DNA of 64,000 nt from Planomonospora sp. ID67723 (GTDB taxonomy: Bacteria > Actinomycetota > Actinomycetes > Streptosporangiales > Streptosporangiaceae). Made by a program: the position numbers and the translations under genes. This document shows, piece after piece, positions 3,394-62,191 of this stretch (position 1 is its first letter; each line of letters opens with the position of its first letter). The stretch lies in contig NZ_JABTEZ010000002.1 of NCBI RefSeq assembly GCF_015711605.1, forward strand, positions 992,001-1,056,000, written 5' to 3'. Under the pieces are notes generated by a model. That model ran no database searches. It saw only the letters and a program-made list of their open reading frames with translations, and was not told where the DNA came from.

Positions 3394-3431
3394 GACCCTG
3401 CAGGGCCTCCGCACGGCTGCGCAGGCCCGCG

Positions 3432-3486
3432 GCGGGGGCTCCGGGTGGCCGTTCATTTCGAGCGGGCACCCGGAGCCCCCGCTTTT
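3432..3486 (+). terminator. Intrinsic terminator after F420 oxidoreductase
   Basis: A perfect 16-bp inverted repeat (3432-3447 with 3467-3482, left arm GCGGGGGCTCCGGGTG) has a 19-base loop and is followed directly by TTTT. It ends transcription of the oxidoreductase gene. Confidence 0.9.
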
Positions 3487-3563
3487 CTCGTTTTGGTACA
3501 CGAGCGGTCGCGGAACGCTATGTCTTCCTTGAAGTCGCCAACTACTTCAAATCTCGTGGAGGC

Positions 3564-52278: not shown

Positions 52279-53133
52279 TTATGTCCGGTTCGTCGGCGGG
52301 GTCTTGTACGTTCCTGCGCGCTGGTAGGCGGCCGGAGGCACGCCCATGATCCGCTTGAAATGCCTGTTCAGATGGGCCTGGTCGGCGAACCCGACTTCGG
52401 CGGCGACCTGGGCGGCCGGTGTCCCGGAGTCGAGCAGGGAGCGGGCCTGCCGCACCCGGAGCGTGTTCAGGTAGGCGTGCGGCGGGAGGCCGGTGGCGGC
52501 CTTGAACGCGCGGATCAGGGTGAAGGGCCGCACCTCCACCGCCCGCGCCAGGTCCTCCAGCGTCGGAGGGTCGATCAGGCGCTCGTGCAGGATCTCCCGC
52601 GCCAGCCGTACCGCGTGGCCCCCGGAGGGCGGCTGCGGCCTGGCCGGGCGGTGGGCGGCGTGGTGGCGGACCAGCGCGCCGAAGGCCGTACGGGCGAGGG
52701 TGGAGGAGGCCAGGTCGTCGCCGTGCTCGGCGGCGCTGTGCGCGGCGCGCAGCAGGGCGGCGGCGCGCGAGCCCGCCCCGCCGGACAGCACGGCCTCCGG
52801 GAAGTACGGCGTGCCCCTCCCGGCCAGCAGTTCCCCGGCGATCTCGGTGATCACCTGGACGGACGGGTAGAGCATCCGGTAGGCCCAGCCGTCCGGCACC
52901 CCGGCCTGGCCGTTGTGCACCTGGTCGGGGTCGACCAGGACCACGGCGCCCGTCCCGGCGCGGTGCCGGGCGCCCCGGTAGTCGAACTCCTCGACCCCGG
53001 ACAGGATGACCCCGATGGCGTACCCCTCGTGCACGTGCCGGGTGAACCGGTGCGTGACGTAGCGGGCCTTGAGCAGGTCCACTCCCGGCAACCCCGGACT
53101 CCGCCAGAACCGTGCGGCCTCTCCCGCGCTCAC
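52279..53133 (-). CDS. AraC-family transcriptional regulator
   Basis: A 284-residue regulator. The N-terminal cupin (HVHEGYAIGVILSGVEEFDYRGARHRAGTGAVVLVDPDQVHNGQ) is expected to bind a small ligand; the C-terminal double HTH (LEDLARAVEVRPFTLIRAFKAATGLPPHAYLNTLRVRQARSLL, AAEVGFADQAHLNRHFKRIMGVPPAAY) is canonical. In position it resembles regulators that control their adjacent azlCD genes. GTG 53133 overlaps the stop of the upstream kinase gene (GTGA). Confidence 0.93.
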   Translation of the reverse strand: MSAGEAARFWRSPGLPGVDLLKARYVTHRFTRHVHEGYAIGVILSGVEEFDYRGARHRAGTGAVVLVDPDQVHNGQAGVPDGWAYRMLYPSVQVITEIAGELLAGRGTPYFPEAVLSGGAGSRAAALLRAAHSAAEHGDDLASSTLARTAFGALVRHHAAHRPARPQPPSGGHAVRLAREILHERLIDPPTLEDLARAVEVRPFTLIRAFKAATGLPPHAYLNTLRVRQARSLLDSGTPAAQVAAEVGFADQAHLNRHFKRIMGVPPAAYQRAGTYKTPPTNRT

Positions 53134-55010
53134 GGCCGGAAAGTCTTGACGAGCCGGTCGAAGGGCGCCCGGTCCCAGGTGGCCTCCGGGCTCTCCCAGT
53201 AGATGGCGTACGGCGTGCCGTCGGCGGTGCGGAACCCCCGGTCCAGGACGCGGACCGGCACGCCGTCACGCCGGAAGGTGAACTCCCAGTCGGCGGCGGG
53301 CCTGTCCAGGTAGGTCAGCGGGGTGATGGAGATCCGCTCGTAGCCCGGCCAGACGCCGTCGGCCGTGCCGCCCTCCTCGACCTTCTCCCAGTGCTCGACC
53401 GGGTCCGTCTCGGGGTCCTCGGTCGATTCGACCCACAGGAAGGCGGCCGATCCCGGTGCCCGGAACTCCACCCGGTCGCGGCCGGAGAACCGTTTGACGC
53501 TCCAGGTGCGCGGGATGGCGAGGCTGAAGCCCAGCGGGTCCTCGTGCAGCCGCCAGCCCTTCGGGACCACCGGGTCGCCGGAGGGAGTCGCCGGAGGGCT
53601 GACGGGGCCGCCGGTGGGACCCTCTGTCGTGGAGACGACGGCCGTCCCCGCCGCGCGGTCCTGCAGGACCAGCCAGCCGCCCGCTCCGGCCGCGAGCGCG
53701 AGCACCGGTACCCCGACCATGAGCGCCACCCGCCTGCCCCTCTGCCGGGGGGCGTGCCGGGGATCCCCGGCGTGGGCGGGATGGTCCGACAGCGTCGGGG
53801 ATCCCCGGTGCGAGGGCTCGCCAGGGTGCGCGGGACCGTCCGGGGGCGGGAGGGGCCAGGGGTGCACGGGCCCGACCGAGTGCGCCGTCCGCCCGGTGCG
53901 GACCGGTGCGTCGGAGTGCTCCGGCCGCACCTGGGCGGCGGGTTCGCCGGGGTGCGGCGGTCGCCCGGACCGGGACGGGTACGGCGTCTGGGCGGGCCTG
54001 GGCGGATGGGGCGTGTGCCCGAGGTGGGCGGACTGCGGCGGGAACGGTCCCGGTCCGGGTTCCCCCGGTCCGGCCGGGTGGATGTGCCGGGGCCGGGGTT
54101 CGTCGCCACCGGGCTCGCGGCCCGGTTCCCACGGTTGCGTGCCGTGCGGGGGCGGCACGGGACGGGCCGGTTCCCGGGACGGCGGGATGTCGCCGGGCAG
54201 GGGCCGGCCGGCGGCGCGGGCGAGCAGGACCTCGGCCTCCGCCGCGCCCATGCGGGCGGCCGGATCCCTGGTCATCAGACCGAGGATCGCCGTGGACAGG
54301 GGGCCGCCGTGGGTCATCGGGCCGGGCTCGCCCTGCAGGACGGCCATCATGGTCGCGGCGGCCGTCGGGCGCTGGAAGGGCGGGTGCCCCTCCAGCGCGG
54401 CGTACAGCGTCGCGCCGAGCGACCACAGGTCCGACTCCGGCCCGGCGGGCAGCCCGTGCAGCCGCTCCGGCGGCAGGAAGGCCGGCGTGCCGACCATCCC
54501 GCCCGTCCGGGTGATCCCCGGCTCCTGCGTCGTGGCGGCGATGCCGAAGTCGGTCAGCACCACCCGGTCGTCATCGGCCAGCAGCACGTTCTCCGGTTTG
54601 ACGTCGCGGTGCAGGATCCCGGCGGCGTGCGCGGCGCGCAGCGCGCTCAGCACGCTCAGCCCGACGGACGCCACCCGCCCGGGGGGCAGCGGGCCGCGCT
54701 CGCGGACGACCTCGCCCAGCGAGCGCGAGCGCACCAGCTGCATGACGATCCAGGGCCGCCCGCCCTCCTCGATCACATCGTGCACGATGATCACGGATGG
54801 GTGGTCGAGCCGCCCGGCGGTCTTCGCCTCCCGGATGGTCCGCCGGTTCAGCTCGTCCTGTGTGGCCTCGTCGACCCCGCGGTAGCGGACCTCCTTGACC
54901 GCAACGACCCTGTCGAGCAGCTCGTCGTGGGCGCGCCAGACGACGCCCATCCCGCCCTCTCCGATGGGTTCGAGCAGGTGGTAGCGGCCCGCGACCCTCC
55001 GTTCGGTCAT
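53130..55010 (-). CDS. Membrane Ser/Thr kinase with LpqN/PsbP-like outer domain
   Basis: A 626-residue kinase: catalytic domain ~9-270 with Gly-rich loop IGEGGMGVVW, Lys39, HRDVKPEN (Asp136), DFG (154-156); a His/Pro-rich juxtamembrane linker; one helix (~428-448); and an extracytoplasmic domain (~485-626, GWRLHEDPLGFSLAIPRTW ... WDRAPFDRLVKTFRP). The outer domain is homologous to that of the next kinase upstream and resembles the PsbP/LpqN-type fold, an inference from motif shape. ATG 55010 begins the kinase domain; GTG 55037 adds nine residues. Its stop overlaps the AraC gene. Confidence 0.92.
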   Translation of the reverse strand: MTERRVAGRYHLLEPIGEGGMGVVWRAHDELLDRVVAVKEVRYRGVDEATQDELNRRTIREAKTAGRLDHPSVIIVHDVIEEGGRPWIVMQLVRSRSLGEVVRERGPLPPGRVASVGLSVLSALRAAHAAGILHRDVKPENVLLADDDRVVLTDFGIAATTQEPGITRTGGMVGTPAFLPPERLHGLPAGPESDLWSLGATLYAALEGHPPFQRPTAAATMMAVLQGEPGPMTHGGPLSTAILGLMTRDPAARMGAAEAEVLLARAAGRPLPGDIPPSREPARPVPPPHGTQPWEPGREPGGDEPRPRHIHPAGPGEPGPGPFPPQSAHLGHTPHPPRPAQTPYPSRSGRPPHPGEPAAQVRPEHSDAPVRTGRTAHSVGPVHPWPLPPPDGPAHPGEPSHRGSPTLSDHPAHAGDPRHAPRQRGRRVALMVGVPVLALAAGAGGWLVLQDRAAGTAVVSTTEGPTGGPVSPPATPSGDPVVPKGWRLHEDPLGFSLAIPRTWSVKRFSGRDRVEFRAPGSAAFLWVESTEDPETDPVEHWEKVEEGGTADGVWPGYERISITPLTYLDRPAADWEFTFRRDGVPVRVLDRGFRTADGTPYAIYWESPEATWDRAPFDRLVKTFRP

Positions 55011-55062
55011 AGCTTTCGATCCCCCTCCCAAGCTCACGAATCGTAGCCGGTCGGGCCGAACA

Positions 55063-57180
55063 TCACTTTTTCGATGAGAAGGTCGCGGTGAACCCCTCGA
55101 ACAGGTGCAGGCTCTCGTCCCACTTCGACGCGAGGGTGTGCCAGTAGATCGCGTATCCCCGGCCGCCCTTGGTGATGAACCCCCGGTTGAGCACCCGTGC
55201 CTTGCCGGAGGACATCTGCCAGGTGAACTCCCAGTCGGCGGCGTTCTCCATGTAGTCGACCCTGTCGATCCGGATCCGCTCGTAGCCGCGGAGCGTGGCG
55301 CGGGTGGTCGGCTCCTGCTTCTCCCAGTCCTCCTTGGCGTCCTTGCCCGGGCTGTCGGTGTACTCGACCATGACGAAGCTCACCCGGTCGGGGCCGCGGA
55401 ACCACACCTGCGGTCCCGGGCGCCGGTCCACGCCCCACCCCTTGGGCAGGCCGATGGAGAAGCCGTTGCGGTCCTTGTGCAGGTGCCAGCCGGAGGGGAG
55501 CTTGTCCTTCTTCTTCCCGGTGGTCTTCGACGGGGTCGGCGTGGGCTCGGCCGAGCCCTCCTCGGGGCTCGGGCTCTTGCCGGAGTCCGAGCTCTTCCCG
55601 GGATCGGAACCCTTCTCGGTCTCCGCGCCCTCCGAAGGGCTCTCCCCGGGTTCGGCCGTGTTCCGGTCCCGCTGTCCGGCCACGCCGGGCGTGTCGCTGT
55701 TCATGCCGATCCAGACGCCCAGCGCGGCCACGACGACCAGCGCCACCAGGATCACGGGCAGCACGCGCCGGACCCTGGAGGGAGGCAGCATCCCGAGCCT
55801 GGTCCGCTCCTGGTCGAGCTGGGCCGGGCCGTGCCCCGCCGGCTCGGGGACGGACTGCGGGACCGGCGGGACGGGGCCGGGAGCGGGGGAGTCCGGCGAG
55901 GCGGAGCCGGCCGGGGGAGAGTCGGCCGCGAGGTCCTTGACGTACTTCCTCGTGGCGGAGGAAGGCGCGTCAGGGGGTGTCTCCGAGGCGACGGGCGGCG
56001 TCTGCGCGACGGAGGGAGTCTCCTCCGCCGCGCCGGACGGGGCGGCCCGACCCGCGTCGGGCGCGACGGCGCCCGGGGGCGGCAGCTTGGCGACCTGCCC
56101 GGTCTGCGGGATGCCGGCAGCCGCCGGGCCCGGTCCGGCCTCCCCCCGCGCCGGCGGCTTCCCGCCTGCGGGCGGGGCCGGCCGTTCCGCACCGGAGGGG
56201 GCGGCCCGCTTCTCTCCCTCGGCGCCTGACGGTGTCCGCTTGCGGGGCGGCACCGGTTCGTACGGCTTGCGCCGCTCCGCCCCCGCGGGAGGGTCGGCGA
56301 GGGCGGGCGCGGAGGCGGACGGGACCTGTGAGATCGACCACGGCTGCGTGGAGGCGCGGCCCTCGGCCACCTTCCGCAGCATGGCGGAGGCCTCCGCGTA
56401 GGTGAGCCGCTGGACGGGCTCCTTGCGGAGCAGGCCTTCGAGCACCGGCAGGAGCGGGCCGGCGTTGCGCGCCGGGTCCGGCGGGTCGGTCATGACCGAG
56501 TGCATGGTGGGCAGGGGCATCTTGCGGTCGTGCGGGGACCTGCCCTCCACCGCCGCGTACAGGGTCGCGCCGAGCGACCACAGGTCCGACTCCCGGCGGG
56601 CGGGCAGGCCGCGCAGCCGCTCCGGCGCGATGAACGCGGGCGTTCCCGCCACGCCGGTCATGGTCAGCGTGTTCTCGGAGTCCAGCTTGGCGATGCCGAA
56701 GTCGGTCAGCACCACCCTGCCGTTCTGGGCGAGCAGCACGTTCTCCGGCTTGACGTCGCGGTGCAGCACCCCGGCGTCGTGCGCGCTGTGCAGCGCCTCC
56801 AGCAGGGCGAGCCCGATCTCGGCGACCCGCCGGGGCGGGAGCGGTCCGTCCTCGCGCAGCACCTGGCCCAGCGAGCGGGACTGCACCAGCTGCATGACGA
56901 TCCAGGGCTGCTCGTTCTCCTCGATCACGTCGTAGACGACCACGACGTTCGGGTGGGAGAGCCGGGCGGCCGCGCGGGCCTCGCGCATCATGCGCTGGTT
57001 AAGGGTCTGGACGTCCTCACCGAGGGCGGCGGAGTAGCGGACCTCCTTGACCGCGACGGTCCGGTCGAGAAGCTCGTCGTGAGCCTTCCAGACCGTGCCC
57101 ATCCCGCCCCGCCCGATGGGTTCCAGGAGGCGGTAGCGGCCTGCGACACGTCGCTCTTCCTGGTGCCCATCCGACTGCAT
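55063..57180 (-). CDS. Membrane Ser/Thr kinase with LpqN/PsbP-like outer domain (paralogue)
   Basis: A 705-residue kinase: Gly-rich loop IGRGGMGTVW, Lys45, HRDVKPEN (Asp142), DFG (160-162), GTPAFIAPE; Ala/Pro-rich cytoplasmic linker; one helix (~473-493); a charged Ser/Glu/Lys stalk; and an extracytoplasmic domain (~564-705). It shares GYERI, ADWEFT, RVLxRGF and YAIYW blocks with the downstream kinase (53130), indicating tandem duplication. ATG 57180 has GGAG six bases upstream; an upstream in-frame GTG region shows no conservation. The 52-base gap to the paralogue suggests co-transcription. The ligand of the shared domain is unknown. Confidence 0.93.
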   Translation of the reverse strand: MQSDGHQEERRVAGRYRLLEPIGRGGMGTVWKAHDELLDRTVAVKEVRYSAALGEDVQTLNQRMMREARAAARLSHPNVVVVYDVIEENEQPWIVMQLVQSRSLGQVLREDGPLPPRRVAEIGLALLEALHSAHDAGVLHRDVKPENVLLAQNGRVVLTDFGIAKLDSENTLTMTGVAGTPAFIAPERLRGLPARRESDLWSLGATLYAAVEGRSPHDRKMPLPTMHSVMTDPPDPARNAGPLLPVLEGLLRKEPVQRLTYAEASAMLRKVAEGRASTQPWSISQVPSASAPALADPPAGAERRKPYEPVPPRKRTPSGAEGEKRAAPSGAERPAPPAGGKPPARGEAGPGPAAAGIPQTGQVAKLPPPGAVAPDAGRAAPSGAAEETPSVAQTPPVASETPPDAPSSATRKYVKDLAADSPPAGSASPDSPAPGPVPPVPQSVPEPAGHGPAQLDQERTRLGMLPPSRVRRVLPVILVALVVVAALGVWIGMNSDTPGVAGQRDRNTAEPGESPSEGAETEKGSDPGKSSDSGKSPSPEEGSAEPTPTPSKTTGKKKDKLPSGWHLHKDRNGFSIGLPKGWGVDRRPGPQVWFRGPDRVSFVMVEYTDSPGKDAKEDWEKQEPTTRATLRGYERIRIDRVDYMENAADWEFTWQMSSGKARVLNRGFITKGGRGYAIYWHTLASKWDESLHLFEGFTATFSSKK

Positions 57181-57374
57181 CACCAGCTCCAAACCTCCCT
57201 CACAGTGAAGGAGATCCTCCCATAAACAGGGATCCGTCCAGACCTCTCGCCCGGTCAGAACCTCCTCCCCCGGGGACTCGCGCCCCGCGCGCCGTCCATC
57301 GAGCATGCATCCACGATGTGAGACGCCTGTCCACTGAGTGGCGTGTGGCGAGGTGATGGCCTATGGTTGACGGC

Positions 57375-57425
57375 ATGAATCGCTCTTTCGCGTTTATCGA
57401 GCCGGCTCCGGGGAGCCGGTCGTGA
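57375..57425 (+). CDS. Putative Phe-containing leader peptide
   Basis: A 16-codon ORF encoding MNRSFAFIEPAPGSRS, with two Phe codons (57387-57389, 57393-57395), lies upstream of a strong terminator and the chorismate-mutase fusion gene. TATGGT at 57362-57367 is a good -10 placed so that transcription would begin at the ATG; no ribosome site exists, so a leaderless mRNA is likely. GC-rich segments inside it can pair alternatively: 57402-57409 with 57412-57419, or 57401-57411 with 57446-57456. The reading as a Phe-sensing attenuator leader is an inference. Confidence 0.5.
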   Translation: MNRSFAFIEPAPGSRS

Positions 57426-57456
57426 GCACGTGACCTAGCGACCAACCGGAGCCGGC

Positions 57457-57493
57457 AAAGGCAGAGACGCCCGAGTCTCTGCCTTTTGTGTTT
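57457..57493 (+). terminator. Intrinsic terminator/attenuator before chorismate-mutase fusion
   Basis: AAAGGCAGAGAC (57457-57468) pairs perfectly with 57475-57486, loop 6 bases, followed by the T-rich TGTGTTTCTT. It is the most classical intrinsic terminator in the window and sits between a short leader ORF and the downstream gene, as in attenuators. Confidence 0.85.
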
Positions 57494-57546
57494 CTTACGA
57501 TTCGCCGGCCCGCGGAGCGCGCGCCGGCTGAGCATGGGGAGCCGAG

Positions 57547-58503
57547 ATGTCGTTGACCGCACGCGTGAGGAGCGGGGCCGTGCACCTGGGGACGCTGACG
57601 GTGGGCGCCACGGGTCCGGCCGTGGTGATCGGCGGCGTGGGCGCGGACGCGCGCTGGATCAGCCTGCGCGGCCACCACGGGCGGGTGCCCGCGGCCGAGG
57701 CGCTGGCCCGGGTCCGCGCGCAGTGGGCCGGGCCGGTCCTGGTGGAGCCGTTCTCCTCGGCGGACCTGGTGGGGATCGCGGCCGGAGCCGACGGCGTGGT
57801 GGTCGGGGCCGGCTGGATGCGGGATCTCCACCTGGTGCGCGCGGTCGCCCGGCTGGGCCTGCCGGTGGTCGTGCAGCGCGGCCCCGCCGCGACGTTGGAG
57901 GAGTGGCTCGCCGTGGGCGGCCACTGCGTGGCCGAGGGCAATGACCGGGTCGTGCTCTGCGAGGGCGGGAGCCGCGTGCGTGCGGGCGGAGGCGCCGGGG
58001 CCCTCCCGGGGGAGACGGTCCTCGACCTGGCCCTGATGCGCGCGGCCCGGGAGCGCTCCGGTCACCCCGTCCTGGCCTGGCTGGGCGACGACCCGGCGCT
58101 GGCCGCGGCCGCGGTGGCCGCCGGGGCCGACGGACTGCTCCTGGCCCCGGACGCCGCGCCGGAGGTCGCCGCGGCCGCCCAGGAGGCCGTGAAGATCGTC
58201 GGAGCGGTCACCCGCAGGGAGGAGCCGGACTCCGTGCTCTCCGCGCGCGGCGCCGTCGACCGCGTGGACGCCGCCCTGGCCGTCCTCCTGGAGCGCCGCG
58301 CCGAGCTGGCCGGGACCATCCAGCGGCTCAAGCCCGTGGGCGGTTTCGCGGGCCGCGACATGGACCGCGAGCGCCGCCTGGTCGCCGAGATGGCCCGTCG
58401 CGCCCCCACCCTGGGCGAGGTCAGACTGGCGCCCATCATGAACGCCGTCATCGAGGCGGGGCTGCAACTGGCCGAGGAGCGGAGGGCCGCGCGCCGGGAC
58501 TGA
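57547..58503 (+). CDS. Degenerate DAHP-synthase domain fused to chorismate mutase
   Basis: A 318-residue two-domain protein. Residues ~30-215 follow the type I DAHP synthase (AroF/AroG-like) barrel: GAGWMRDLHLVRAVARLGLPVVVQRGP, ATLEEWL, AEGNDRVVLCEGG, AAGADGLLLAPDAAPE. Key residues have changed: KRG is QRG (110-112), CERG is CEGG (138-141), the DPSH metal motif is lost (~178-182), EVHP is LAPD (199-202), and the N-terminal KPRTSPY substrate loop is missing. Catalysis of DAHP formation is therefore unlikely. Residues ~230-318 match AroQ chorismate mutase: RGAVDRVDAALAVLLERRAEL, Lys262, and RDMDRERRLV. It probably makes prephenate, with the barrel acting as a regulatory or docking module. ATG 57547 has GGGGAG upstream. 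Confidence 0.75.
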   Translation: MSLTARVRSGAVHLGTLTVGATGPAVVIGGVGADARWISLRGHHGRVPAAEALARVRAQWAGPVLVEPFSSADLVGIAAGADGVVVGAGWMRDLHLVRAVARLGLPVVVQRGPAATLEEWLAVGGHCVAEGNDRVVLCEGGSRVRAGGGAGALPGETVLDLALMRAARERSGHPVLAWLGDDPALAAAAVAAGADGLLLAPDAAPEVAAAAQEAVKIVGAVTRREEPDSVLSARGAVDRVDAALAVLLERRAELAGTIQRLKPVGGFAGRDMDRERRLVAEMARRAPTLGEVRLAPIMNAVIEAGLQLAEERRAARRD

Positions 58504-58669: not shown

Positions 58670-61600
58670 ATGTCAGACTCGTTTGTGCATCTTCACGTTC
58701 ATACGGAGTACTCCATGCTCGATGGAGCCGCCCGTCTGAAGCAGATGTTCAAACAGGTCGGCGATCTGGGCATGCCCGCCATCGCGATCACCGACCACGG
58801 CAACATGCACGGCGCCTACGACTTCTACAAGCAGGCCACCGGGGCCGGCATCAAGCCGATCATCGGCATCGAGGCCTACGTCGCCCCCGCCTCCCGGCAC
58901 CAGAAGAAGCCGGTGCTGTGGGGAGAGCCCCACCAGAAGAAGGACGACGTGTCGGCGGGTGGCTACTACACCCACATGACGATCTGGGCGCGCAACGAGC
59001 GCGGCCTGAAGAACCTGATGAAGCTCAGCTCCCGCGCCTACACCGAGGGCTTCGTCCGCAAGTGGGCCCGGATGGACGCCGAGATCCTCGCCGAGCACGC
59101 CGAGGGCCTGATGGCCACGACCGGCTGCCCGTCGGGAGAGGTCCAGACCCGCCTGCGGCTGGGCCAGTACGACGAGGCGCGGGCCGCCGCCGCGAAGTTC
59201 CAGGAGCTCTTCGGCAAGGAGAACTACTACCTGGAGATCATGGACCACGGCCTCGAGATCGAGCGCCGGGTCCGCGACGGACTGACCCGCATCTCGAAAG
59301 AGCTGAACATCCCGCCGCTGGTCACCAACGACTCGCACTACACCTACGAGTCGGACGCGACCTCCCACGACGCGCTGCTGTGCATCCAGACCGGCAAGCA
59401 GCTGTCCGACCCCGACCGGTTCCGCTTCGACGGCAGCGGTTACTACATCAAGACCGCCGACGAGATGCGCGCGGTCGACTCCTCCGACCTGTGGGCCGAG
59501 GGCTGCCGCAACACGCTCCTGGTCGCCGAGAAGGTCGAGCCGGAGGGCATGTTCGGGTTCAAGAACCTGATGCCGACCTTCCCGATCCCGGAGGGCATGA
59601 CGGAGGAGGAGTTCTTCCGCCAGGAGGTCTGGGAGGGAATGAAGCGCCGCTTCCCGGGCGGCGTGGACGAGGAGCACCGCGCCTGGGTGGAGAAGGAGCT
59701 CGGTGTCATCATCCAGATGGGCTTCCCATCCTACTTCCTCGTGGTCGCCGACTTCATCATGTGGGCCAAGCGCAACGGCATCCGCGTGGGCCCGGGCCGG
59801 GGCTCGGCGGCGGGCTCTCTGGTGGCCTACGCCCTGGGCATCACCGACCTCGACCCGATCCCGCACGGCCTGATCTTCGAGCGGTTCCTCAACCCCGAGC
59901 GCGTCTCCATGCCCGACGTCGACATCGACTTCGACGAGCGCCGGCGCGGCGACGTGATCCGTTACGTGACCGAGAAGTGGGGCGCCGACAAGGTCGCCAT
60001 GATCGCCACCTTCGGCACCATCAAGGCGAAGGCGGCCATCAAGGACGCCGCCCGCGTCCTCGGCTACCCCTACGCCCTCGGCGACAAGGTCTCCAAGGCG
60101 TTCCCGCCCGCGGTGATGGGCAAGGACATCCCGCTGTCGGGCATCTTCGACAAGGACCACCCGCGCTTCGGCGAGGCCGGCGAGCTGCGCAGGCTGTACG
60201 AGGAGGACGTCGACGTCAAGTCGGCGATCGACCTGGGCCGGGGCCTGGAGGGCCTGATCCGGCAGACCGGCGTGCACGCCGCCGGCGTCATCATGTCGTC
60301 GGAGGTGCTGACCGACTACATCCCGATCATGCGCCGCGACTCCGACGGCGCGATCATCACGCAGTTCGACTATCCGACCTGCGAGACGCTCGGCCTGCTG
60401 AAGATGGACTTCCTGGGCCTGCGCAACCTCACGATCATCGACGACTGCCTGAAGGCCATCGAGGCCAACACCGGCACCATGATCGAGCTGCTCGACCTGC
60501 CGCTGGACGACGTCAAGACGTACGAGCTGCTGTCGCGGGGCGACACGCTCGGCATCTTCCAGCTCGACGGCGGCGGCATGCGCTCGCTGCTGCGCCTGAT
60601 GCGCCCCGACAACTTCGAGGACATCTCCGCGGCGCTCGCGCTCTACCGCCCCGGTCCGATGGGAGCCAACTCCCACACCAACTACGCGATGCGCAAGAAC
60701 GGCCAGCAGGAGATCACTCCGATCCACCCGGAGCTGGAGGAGCCGCTCAAGGAGATCCTCGACACGACCTACGGCCTGATCGTCTATCAGGAGCAGGTCA
60801 TGGCGATCGCCCAGAAGGTCGCCAACTACTCCCTGGGCGGCGCCGACCTGCTGCGCCGGGCGATGGGCAAGAAGAAGAAGTCCGAGCTGGACAAGCAGTT
60901 CGAGTTCTTCGAGCAGGGCATGAAGGACAACGGCTTCTCCGCCGCGGCGATCAAGGCCCTGTGGGACATCCTGCTGCCCTTCTCCGACTACGCCTTCAAC
61001 AAGGCCCACACCGCCGGGTACGGCCTGGTCTCCTACTGGACCGCCTACCTCAAGGCCAACTACCCGGCCGAGTACATGGCCGCCCTGCTCACCTCGGTCA
61101 AGGACGACAAGGACAAGTCGGCGCTCTACCTCAACGAGTGCCGCCGTATGGGCATCAAGGTGCTCCCGCCGGACGTCAACGACTCCGACTTCGACTTCAC
61201 CCCGCGTGGCAGCGACGTGCGCTTCGGCCTGTCGGCCATCCGCAACGTCGGCGGCAACGTCGTCGACGGGATCATCGCCGCGCGCAGGGAGAAGGGGCGC
61301 TTCACCGACTTCAAGGACTTCCTGCGCAAGGTTCCCGCGGTCGTCTGCAACAAGCGGGTCATCGAGTCGCTGATCAAGGCCGGGGCCTTCGACTCCTTCG
61401 ACCACGTCCGCAAGGGCCTGGTGATGGTCCACGAGCAGGCCGTCGACGCGATCATCGACATCAAGAAGAACGAGGCGATCGGCCAGGACTCGCTGTTCGG
61501 CGCGGCCGACGGCACCGAGGACCAGACCTTCGACGTGCAGATCCCGCCAGGGGAGTGGGACAAGACAACCCTGCTCGCCTTCGAGCGGGAGATGCTCGGC

Positions 61601-62191
61601 CTGTACGTCTCCGACCACCCGCTCTTCGGCGTCGAGCACATCCTCGCCTCCGGGGCCGACTGCTCGATCGCCGCACTGCAGGACGACAGCCGTCCCGACG
61701 GGCAGGTCGTCACCGTCGGCGGCATCCTGAGCGGGGTCCAGCGCAAGGTCACCAAGAAGGGCGACACCTGGGTCCTGACCATGCTGGAGGACCTGGAGGG
61801 CGCCATCGAGGTGATGATCTTCCCCTCGGCGTACCAGCTCTGCTCCACGATCCTCGCCGAGGACGCGATCGTCTTCGTCAAGGGCCGGCTGGACAAGCGC
61901 GAGGACGTCGGGAAGATCATCGCCATGGAGGTGACCGCCCCCGACCTCACCACGGAGGCGGGCGGGCCGCTCCTGGTGAGCGTCCCGCTGGCCCGGTGCA
62001 CGCCCCCGGTGGTCGGCCGCCTCAAGGAGGTCCTGACCACCCACCCGGGCACCACCGAGGTCCACCTCCAGGTCCACAACGGCCCCAAGACCACGGTCAT
62101 GCGCCTGGACGACCGGCTGCGCGTCTCGCCGTCCCCGGCCCTGATGGGCGACCTCAAGCAACTCCTGGGCCCCGCCTGCCTCGGAGCCTGA
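58670..62191 (+). CDS. dnaE: DNA polymerase III alpha subunit DnaE
   Basis: A 1173-residue replicative polymerase: PHP domain ([29 protein letters not shown], which retain metal-binding His/Asp residues), palm with [17 protein letters not shown] and the catalytic PDVDIDFDE at 415-423, fingers ([26 protein letters not shown]), HhH, and the OB domain near the C-terminus ([22 protein letters not shown]). An intact PHP suggests intrinsic proofreading as shown for mycobacterial DnaE1. ATG 58670 has GGGGGAGGA upstream. TAAGCT at 58625 may be its -10. Confidence 0.97.

Follow-up and report, generated by a model that had tools for sequence, protein, structure and literature searches.

The window, a 64,000-nucleotide stretch of the Planomonospora sp. 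ID67723 genome, contains a gene in which a degenerate type I-beta DAHP synthase domain is joined to an AroQ chorismate mutase (CM), preceded by a structured leader (Table 1). In Pfam searches the fusion protein exceeded the curated cut-offs of both DAHP_synth_1 (PF00793; 37.4 bits against 25.5) and CM_2 (33.2 bits against 27). Its top PDB sequence matches were type I-beta DAHP synthases such as 3nvt (E = 3.6e-14), and the C-terminal half matched DAHP synthase-linked as well as stand-alone AroQ CMs. Among the NCBIfam models, TIGR01361 scored 58.8 bits, far below its equivalog cut-off of 267.75, as expected for a degenerate member. Pfam, PDB matches and alignment thus bear out the first-pass annotation, which had described a pseudo-DAHP synthase fused to CM, the putatively dead copy being covalently attached to the AroQ domain; by sequence, residues ~12–228 are assigned to the type I-beta DAHP synthase lineage and residues ~229–312 to the AroQ CMs. 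Divergent from the leader lie two adjoining genes, Ser/Thr protein kinase-like by eye (53130–55037 and 55063–57306, both on the minus strand), with proline-rich linkers and similar C-terminal domains.

Table 1. Features of the fusion locus, in window coordinates.
Feature	Position	Strand	Basis or remark
-10-like hexamer TATGGT	57362..57367	+	
Leader peptide ORF MNRSFAFIEPAPGSRS, with Phe codons UUC and UUU	57375..57425	+	
Structured leader, conserved (model R1); a single strong copy in this genome	57375..57491	+	Structure model searches
Leader segment 1 (GCCGGCTCCGG), pairing with segment 2 or segment 3	57401..57411	+	Choice between pairings inferred
Leader segment 2 (GAGCCGGTCG)	57413..57422	+	Fold
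Leader segment 3 (CCGGAGCCGGC)	57446..57456	+	Fold
Intrinsic terminator-like hairpin and U-run	57459..57487	+	Fold, covariation
Fusion ORF, 318 aa: degenerate type I-beta DAHP synthase domain and AroQ CM	57547..58503	+	ORF list, profile and PDB matches
DAHP synthase-derived domain, predicted catalytically dead, residues ~12–228	57580..58230	+	Pfam, alignment
AroQ CM domain, residues ~229–312	58231..58482	+	Pfam, PDB matches, alignment
dnaE-like gene (identified by eye as DNA polymerase III alpha)	58670..62191	+	Orthology and tree marker, outside the function of the fusion

Fifty barrels (46 full-length proteins including that of the window, L155 and three f17 proteins) were aligned with 22 apparently intact DAHP synthase sequences, comprising L002, the C-terminal part of L156 and 20 sequences retrieved by region. 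Eleven positions that bind metal, PEP or E4P were taken from an excerpt of PMC6362186; the apparently intact enzymes keep the expected residue in 21–22 of 22 sequences at each of them, and the window barrel keeps it at none. Across the 50 barrels, 38 retain no such residue, ten retain one and two retain two. All four metal ligands (Cys, His, Glu/Asp, Asp) are missing from the window barrel; in the whole set the Cys, the His and the last Asp are never kept and the acidic DVH position is kept in nine. The seven PEP- and E4P-binding residues (RGG Arg, KPRT Lys, Arg and Thr, GARN Arg, KRG Lys, ERG Arg) are likewise absent from the window barrel, each surviving in at most three of the 50. The losses named in the first-pass annotation are all visible in this alignment, with Gln in place of the KRG Lys, the PSH and EVH/DVH metal ligands gone and the N-terminal substrate loop (KPRTS) deleted, and they are joined by the loss of the GARN and CERG Arg residues, of the metal Cys and of the final metal Asp. 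The barrel is predicted from these substitutions to be CATALYTICALLY dead as a DAHP synthase.

Other positions are strongly conserved. The TEV Glu and the KRG Arg persist in 48 of 50 barrels each, the Gly and Asp of GADG persist in all 50, and fold positions including E67, P68, R111, W120, L121, C138, D160, D195 and G196 are invariant in the 46 full-length proteins, E139 being nearly so. The segment that lies between GPC and the third strand in the intact enzyme is much shortened, and the barrel may consequently not be closed; the part bearing the KPRTS loop is missing from the alignment. The alignment also places in the intact L002 enzyme a seemingly regulatory N-domain, presumably ACT-like, that the fusion lacks. 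Estimated by NG86 over all 528 pairs of 33 sequences (the window and 32 of its 47 full-length relatives), dN/dS has a median of 0.47 in the barrel, where it reaches at most 0.82, and of 0.26 in the CM; the method is biased in very GC-rich DNA, and only the contrast between the two domains is used. Recruitment of the barrel to some other catalysis or ligand binding, unconnected with DAHP synthase, would fit the Trp that replaces the GARN Asn in 46 of 50 barrels, as well as the constancy of R111, C138 and E139; we give this explanation a very slim chance, as the conserved residues are mostly fold positions and the domain shows large indels, missing segments and barrel-free relatives.

The CM domain was compared over 130 distinct rows, which include the window and five f22 rows and in which one genome may appear twice. 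Equivalents of EcCM Arg11, Arg28, Lys39, Arg51 and Glu52 are invariant and that of Asp48 is present in 129 rows, corresponding in the window to R234, R251, K262, R274, E275 and D271. The description of the AroQ domain as intact therefore stands for six of the eight EcCM active-site residues checked and fails for Ser84 and Gln88, which align with G305 and A309. Position 84 is Gly in 126 rows and Ser in four; position 88 is Ala in 112, Ser in 16, Trp in one and Pro in one (the frame-shifted L155), and Gln is never kept there. The alignment of this third helix rests on profile matches to 3nvt, 5j6f, 2d8d and 1ecm. Position 36 is Gln in 130 of 130 rows (Q259 in the window), about one helical turn before Lys39. 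In EcCM the ether oxygen is contacted by Lys39 as well as by Gln88, and we infer that the invariant Gln36 may take over from the lost Gln88.

The domain was also compared with 40 control AroQ-type sequences of the class, in an alignment that holds five further rows of the window's CM family; as the third-helix columns of this family are misaligned there, only position 36 was taken from it. Gln occupies this position in none of the 25 non-delta controls and in eight of the 15 AroQ-delta CMs (L260–L267), the other seven, of mycobacterial type, carrying Gly; the eight might be less partner-dependent. Gln36 is thus common to the window's family and these delta sequences. The window protein nevertheless falls outside AroQ-delta, a group defined, in the portion of PMC4281200 available, by an invariant C-terminal Arg-Gly dyad: the dyad (CRG/GRG) is present in 15 of 15 delta controls and absent from the window C-terminus, and a short, weakly resolved tree sets the window's family apart from the 15. 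The analogy drawn earlier with mycobacteria, where CM is activated by binding an active DAHP synthase, holds in one respect and fails in another, since the M. tuberculosis CM, which depends on its DAHP synthase, likewise lacks Ser84 and Gln88 equivalents according to the same portion of PMC4281200, and the dyad is missing here.

The genome (99.83% complete) encodes a single type II DAHP synthase, a single AroH-class CM and, of type I-beta, one DAHP synthase that appears intact. The suggested search for an active DAHP synthase elsewhere in it accordingly yielded two candidates, both free of the losses described above as judged by sequence. Within the genome only the fusion protein passes the CM_2 cut-off; a weak CM_2 match at C1:646802 was set aside, as by eye it seems to fall within or next to a MerR-type regulator. 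The presence of the AroH-class enzyme excludes the fusion as the sole CM, and as AroH-class CMs occur in 61 of 61 family genomes sampled, the fusion gene represents a second CM. It is not universal: the profile of this CM matched 85 of 121 family genomes and none of the remaining 36, and one of the 85 matches (L156 in G313, 34.3 bits) is a different protein. The 732-aa frame of L156 contains, by eye, an AroQ CM, then a prephenate dehydratase-like domain, then an intact type I-beta DAHP synthase, and is possibly a trifunctional fusion.

A further explanation is that both domains are dead, that the protein is a chorismate-binding regulator and that the AroH-class CM performs the catalysis. Consistent with it are the ubiquity of the AroH-class enzyme, the absence of a fusion-type CM from 36 of 121 genomes (with an unrelated one in a further genome) and the loss of Gln88 and mostly of Ser84, the Gln88Ala replacement alone lowering EcCM activity 2 × 10^4-fold in the available part of PMC4281200. 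We regard it as very unlikely, given that the invariant or near-invariant R11, R28, K39, D48, R51 and E52 in 130 rows are unlike a mere remnant, that the CM evolves more slowly than the barrel and that aromatic leader control, described below, fits a biosynthetic enzyme.

A scan of the genome collection, covering close relatives only, recovered 52 loci from named genomes that span nine genera (Streptosporangium, Planomonospora, Planobispora, Sinosporangium, Nonomuraea, Microbispora, Sphaerisporangium, Bailinhaonella and Thermoactinospora), the relatives placed in trees being labelled Streptosporangiaceae. An unbroken reading frame runs from the aligned start codon in 47 of them; the other five (L042, L043, L044, L047 and L051) abut a contig end, the frame of L044 opening only 110 bases in. 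The fusion is thus neither a chance arrangement nor an error of a single genome. The CM half is better conserved than the barrel half, in which indels are frequent. Among the matches listed for 296 class genomes, none combined an intact DAHP synthase with a C-terminal CM of this type, as a living ancestor would, and a search of the open-access literature found nothing on this fusion or its leader.

Beyond the barrel-bearing proteins, the CM occurs with a shortened barrel (L070, L157 and L158), with no recognisable N-terminal domain (CM-only, 27 loci) or with a GNAT acetyltransferase domain in f22. The GNAT fusions comprise L165, L167, L168 and L169, each with dnaE downstream, and L166; in Pfam searches L165 scored 42.7 bits for Acetyltransf_1 and 37.0 bits for CM_2, and the other four were judged by eye. 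A barrel profile, whose background in 813 shuffled sequences reached at most 6.6 bits, scored 27.7–49.4 bits for 13 of 13 f17 proteins, 135–151 bits for the three short barrels and 213 bits for L155. It gave at most 1.4 bits in the 22 CM-only N-termini that scored, no match in the remaining five and at most 5.1 bits in the five GNAT N-termini. By these profile scores all 13 f17 N-termini are assigned common ancestry with the barrel, pieces of which have been lost both in f17 proteins and in L157, L158 and L070. The L155 barrel (genome G309) has the top DAHP_synth_1 score of those scanned, 57.5 bits; its CM part is out of frame in this single assembly.

The dnaE gene served as a marker of orthology and was matched in 43 of the 52 named loci and found downstream in 13 of 13 f17 loci, besides the four f22 loci (of five) mentioned above. 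The picture is sparser for the CM-only genes: dnaE lies directly downstream in 3/27 (L088, L130 and L135), stands in another arrangement in 5/27 (L126, L132, L133, L140 and L146), is divergent in 2/27 (L151 and L154; about 61% identity, possibly a paralog) and is missing from the available stretch in 17/27, so that a shared locus is established for few of them. The dnaE-like genes of L151, L154 and L162 are ~61% identical to that of the window, whereas most barrel-bearing loci reach at least 80%, and perhaps represent a second DnaE type.

On a 71-row dnaE tree, which contains duplicate genomes (L088/L127, and L016/L108 and L040/L103 on zero branches) and the doubtful dnaE of L151 and L154, the f1 barrel label requires three changes and the CM-only label four. 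A 61-row tree, from which L151, L154, some duplicates and some further rows were left out, requires three changes for the CM-only label, at least two of them forced by well-supported branches; L162, with its divergent dnaE (61%), was left out of both trees. In the 61-row tree an ancestral barrel implies about three losses inside f1, and a barrel-free ancestor implies that this domain was gained about four times at one and the same junction (f17, L155, L046 and the main clade). An old fusion lost about three times is preferred over repeated gain, but only narrowly: the drawn root is a midpoint and long branches meet in the tree. Horizontal transfer into L046 or L155 is a possible alternative to barrel loss.

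The leader upstream of the gene is a conserved structured element. None of 200 shuffles folds as stably as positions 57376–57510 (z = -4.41). In the consensus structure of 30 sequences, 98.5% of cells are paired and five pairs are changed on both sides, a number reached by 2 of 500 shuffles; for terminator helix 3 the corresponding values are 99.0% and three pairs. Structure model R1 matched directly upstream in all 47 full-length relatives, from which 29 of its 30 sequences come, with over 100 bits except in L040 (70 bits) and L009 (28.2 bits), the latter having lost the leader peptide. Matches extend to 22 of 27 CM-only loci (L145 at only 18.8 bits) and to 11 of 13 f17 CM loci at E < 0.001, the others being L086 (12.7 bits) and L085, which is cut short upstream. 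No R1 match was obtained at the CM-only loci L137, L149, L150, L151 and L153, of which L137 has little upstream sequence. The R1 search found no second convincing copy in the window's own genome, a weak match at 3396–3501 of the window being a plain GC-rich terminator-like hairpin whose likeness is probably due to chance. An Rfam search of the window's leader gave one match, to a miRNA family far under threshold.

The leader reading frame has 16 codons in the window and begins with ATG or GTG in relatives, which carry Tyr or Phe codons at the corresponding place; in DAHP synthase leaders Trp codons are found there. Among 50 CM-linked leaders (18 fused, the window included, 21 CM-only and 11 f17), 43 have at least two aromatic codons in the first 14 (16/18 fused, 20/21 CM-only and 7/11 f17; fewer in two, one and four, respectively), as do 17 of 17 DAHP synthase leaders, and a TANNNT hexamer starts 12–13 nt 5' of the start codon in 50 of 50; in both counts the script preferred starts giving aromatic codons. 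This spacing is consistent with leaderless translation of the leader ORF. Neither the consensus fold nor inspection by eye showed an antiterminator that overlaps the terminator. Taken together, the leader probably sets expression as a Phe/Tyr leader-peptide attenuator.

Against 197 class genomes R1 matched in 36. Of the matched places, 26 main ones in f17, f4, f31 and f32 are not at the CM gene, and in 17 of 17 fetched from these four other families the next gene is, by eye, a type I-alpha DAHP synthase; a further, weak match lies at G196:C105; all four of the downstream proteins tested passed the TIGR00034 cut-off. These relatives (L185–L201) carry leader peptides such as VVRRYPYFAQAPGGAWRVMR. 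The R1-type leader is apparently a widespread aromatic attenuator. A 2005 survey (PMC1262725), in the part available, saw no RNA structure conserved ahead of the phenylalanine or tyrosine operons in Actinobacteria.

These observations bear on the proposal, made in the first-pass annotation, that the dead copy is an allosteric sensor or docking module. Close CM relatives, most under the same leader, are barrel-free, and the barrel has eroded in several lineages, which makes an obligatory role of this kind unlikely; a lineage-specific one is not disfavoured. Spelled out as a rival explanation, the barrel would be a working regulatory or docking module: it would bind an effector (Phe, Tyr, Trp or prephenate), tether the CM to one of the other two DAHP synthases (type II or intact type I-beta), or activate the CM in cis, as DAHP synthase does for the mycobacterial enzyme. 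Fold positions kept invariant in 46 proteins while active-site positions were lost, the absence of stops in 47 reading frames and barrel dN/dS values of at most 0.82 over 528 pairs all agree with it, as does a CM devoid of Ser84 and Gln88 equivalents, like the partner-needing M. tuberculosis enzyme in the excerpt of PMC4281200. Yet 22 of 27 barrel-free CM relatives match the same leader model, barrel pieces are missing from L157, L158, L070 and the f17 proteins, and the apparently regulatory N-domain of L002 is absent, leaving the module somewhat unlikely in our estimate. A more specific version, in which the catalysis-stripped barrel is a built-in effector or activator domain for a CM whose catalytic glutamine now sits on helix 1 (position 36) instead of helix 3 (position 88), forming a one-chain counterpart of the mycobacterial two-protein DAHP synthase–CM control, is speculative and clearly unlikely.

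On the evidence, a dispensable, catalytically dead barrel remnant attached to a second, regulated CM is more likely than an obligatory sensor, and we consider this reading, taken as a whole, just about probable. The gene would yield a regulated CM beside the AroH-class enzyme, its AroQ domain presumably converting chorismate to prephenate, as the kept residues suggest, with an unusual active site in which Gln36 would stand in for the lost Gln88. The N-terminal domain would be the relic of a type I-beta DAHP synthase to which the CM was ancestrally fused; it lost its metal-, PEP- and E4P-binding residues, as seen in the alignment, and stayed in frame with dN/dS below 1; it appears dispensable because some lineages have it eroded or do without it, the direction of change being read from the trees. 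The leader peptide, its codons, the helices and the terminator are observed features; on them, scarce aminoacyl-tRNA would stall the ribosome at the Tyr or Phe codons just before segment 1, and the stalled ribosome would change the pairing among segments 1–3 and let transcription pass the terminator. The barrel itself would perform no DAHP synthase chemistry and at most aid CM folding, assembly or effector response where kept. Several observations weigh against this dispensable-remnant reading: the conserved fold positions and the lack of stops in 47 full-length frames also fit a kept function, the case for loss is narrow (three losses against about four gains), a shared locus is established for few CM-only genes, the leader has no classical antiterminator, 7 of 50 CM-linked leaders fall short of two aromatic codons in the first 14, and 5 of 27 CM-only loci give no R1 match. 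A lineage-specific regulatory or docking role of the barrel is possible.

Among known systems, the closest in composition are the type I-beta DAHP synthases with AroQ CM represented by 3nvt and 5j6f, from what we take to be Listeria and Geobacillus, which carry the same two families in one chain and are the top matches to both halves. In these, the CM is N-terminal (residues ~30–115 and ~6–91) and the barrel is a named DAHP synthase, whereas in the window the order is reversed and the catalytic residues are gone. DAHP synthases of the Porphyromonas/Prevotella type have a C-terminal AroQ domain, the same order as here, with an active barrel. The mycobacterial and corynebacterial complex of AroQ-delta CM with type II DAHP synthase shares the lack of Ser84 and Gln88 equivalents and a DAHP synthase-like partner, which here is in cis; the window protein differs in that this partner is derived from type I-beta and predicted to be dead, and in having no Arg-Gly dyad and, by alignment, a longer third helix. 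The genes described here form a series along which an enzyme domain gave up its catalysis and wore away, to be missing or exchanged for another in some members, with the fusion partner under stronger selection. They open to experiment the question whether a DAHP synthase domain that is dead can still tune a CM; they also point to an alternative AroQ active site with Gln36 for Gln88. For the leader, the parallel, drawn from descriptions, is the Phe-Tyr-Phe leader peptide aroR upstream of the DAHP synthase gene aroF in C. glutamicum, as given in the portions of PMC11802643 and PMC4046766 available. R1 likewise precedes type I-alpha DAHP synthase genes elsewhere, but in the window it precedes a CM gene, which points to an aromatic attenuator that DAHP synthase genes share with CM genes across several families of actinobacteria.
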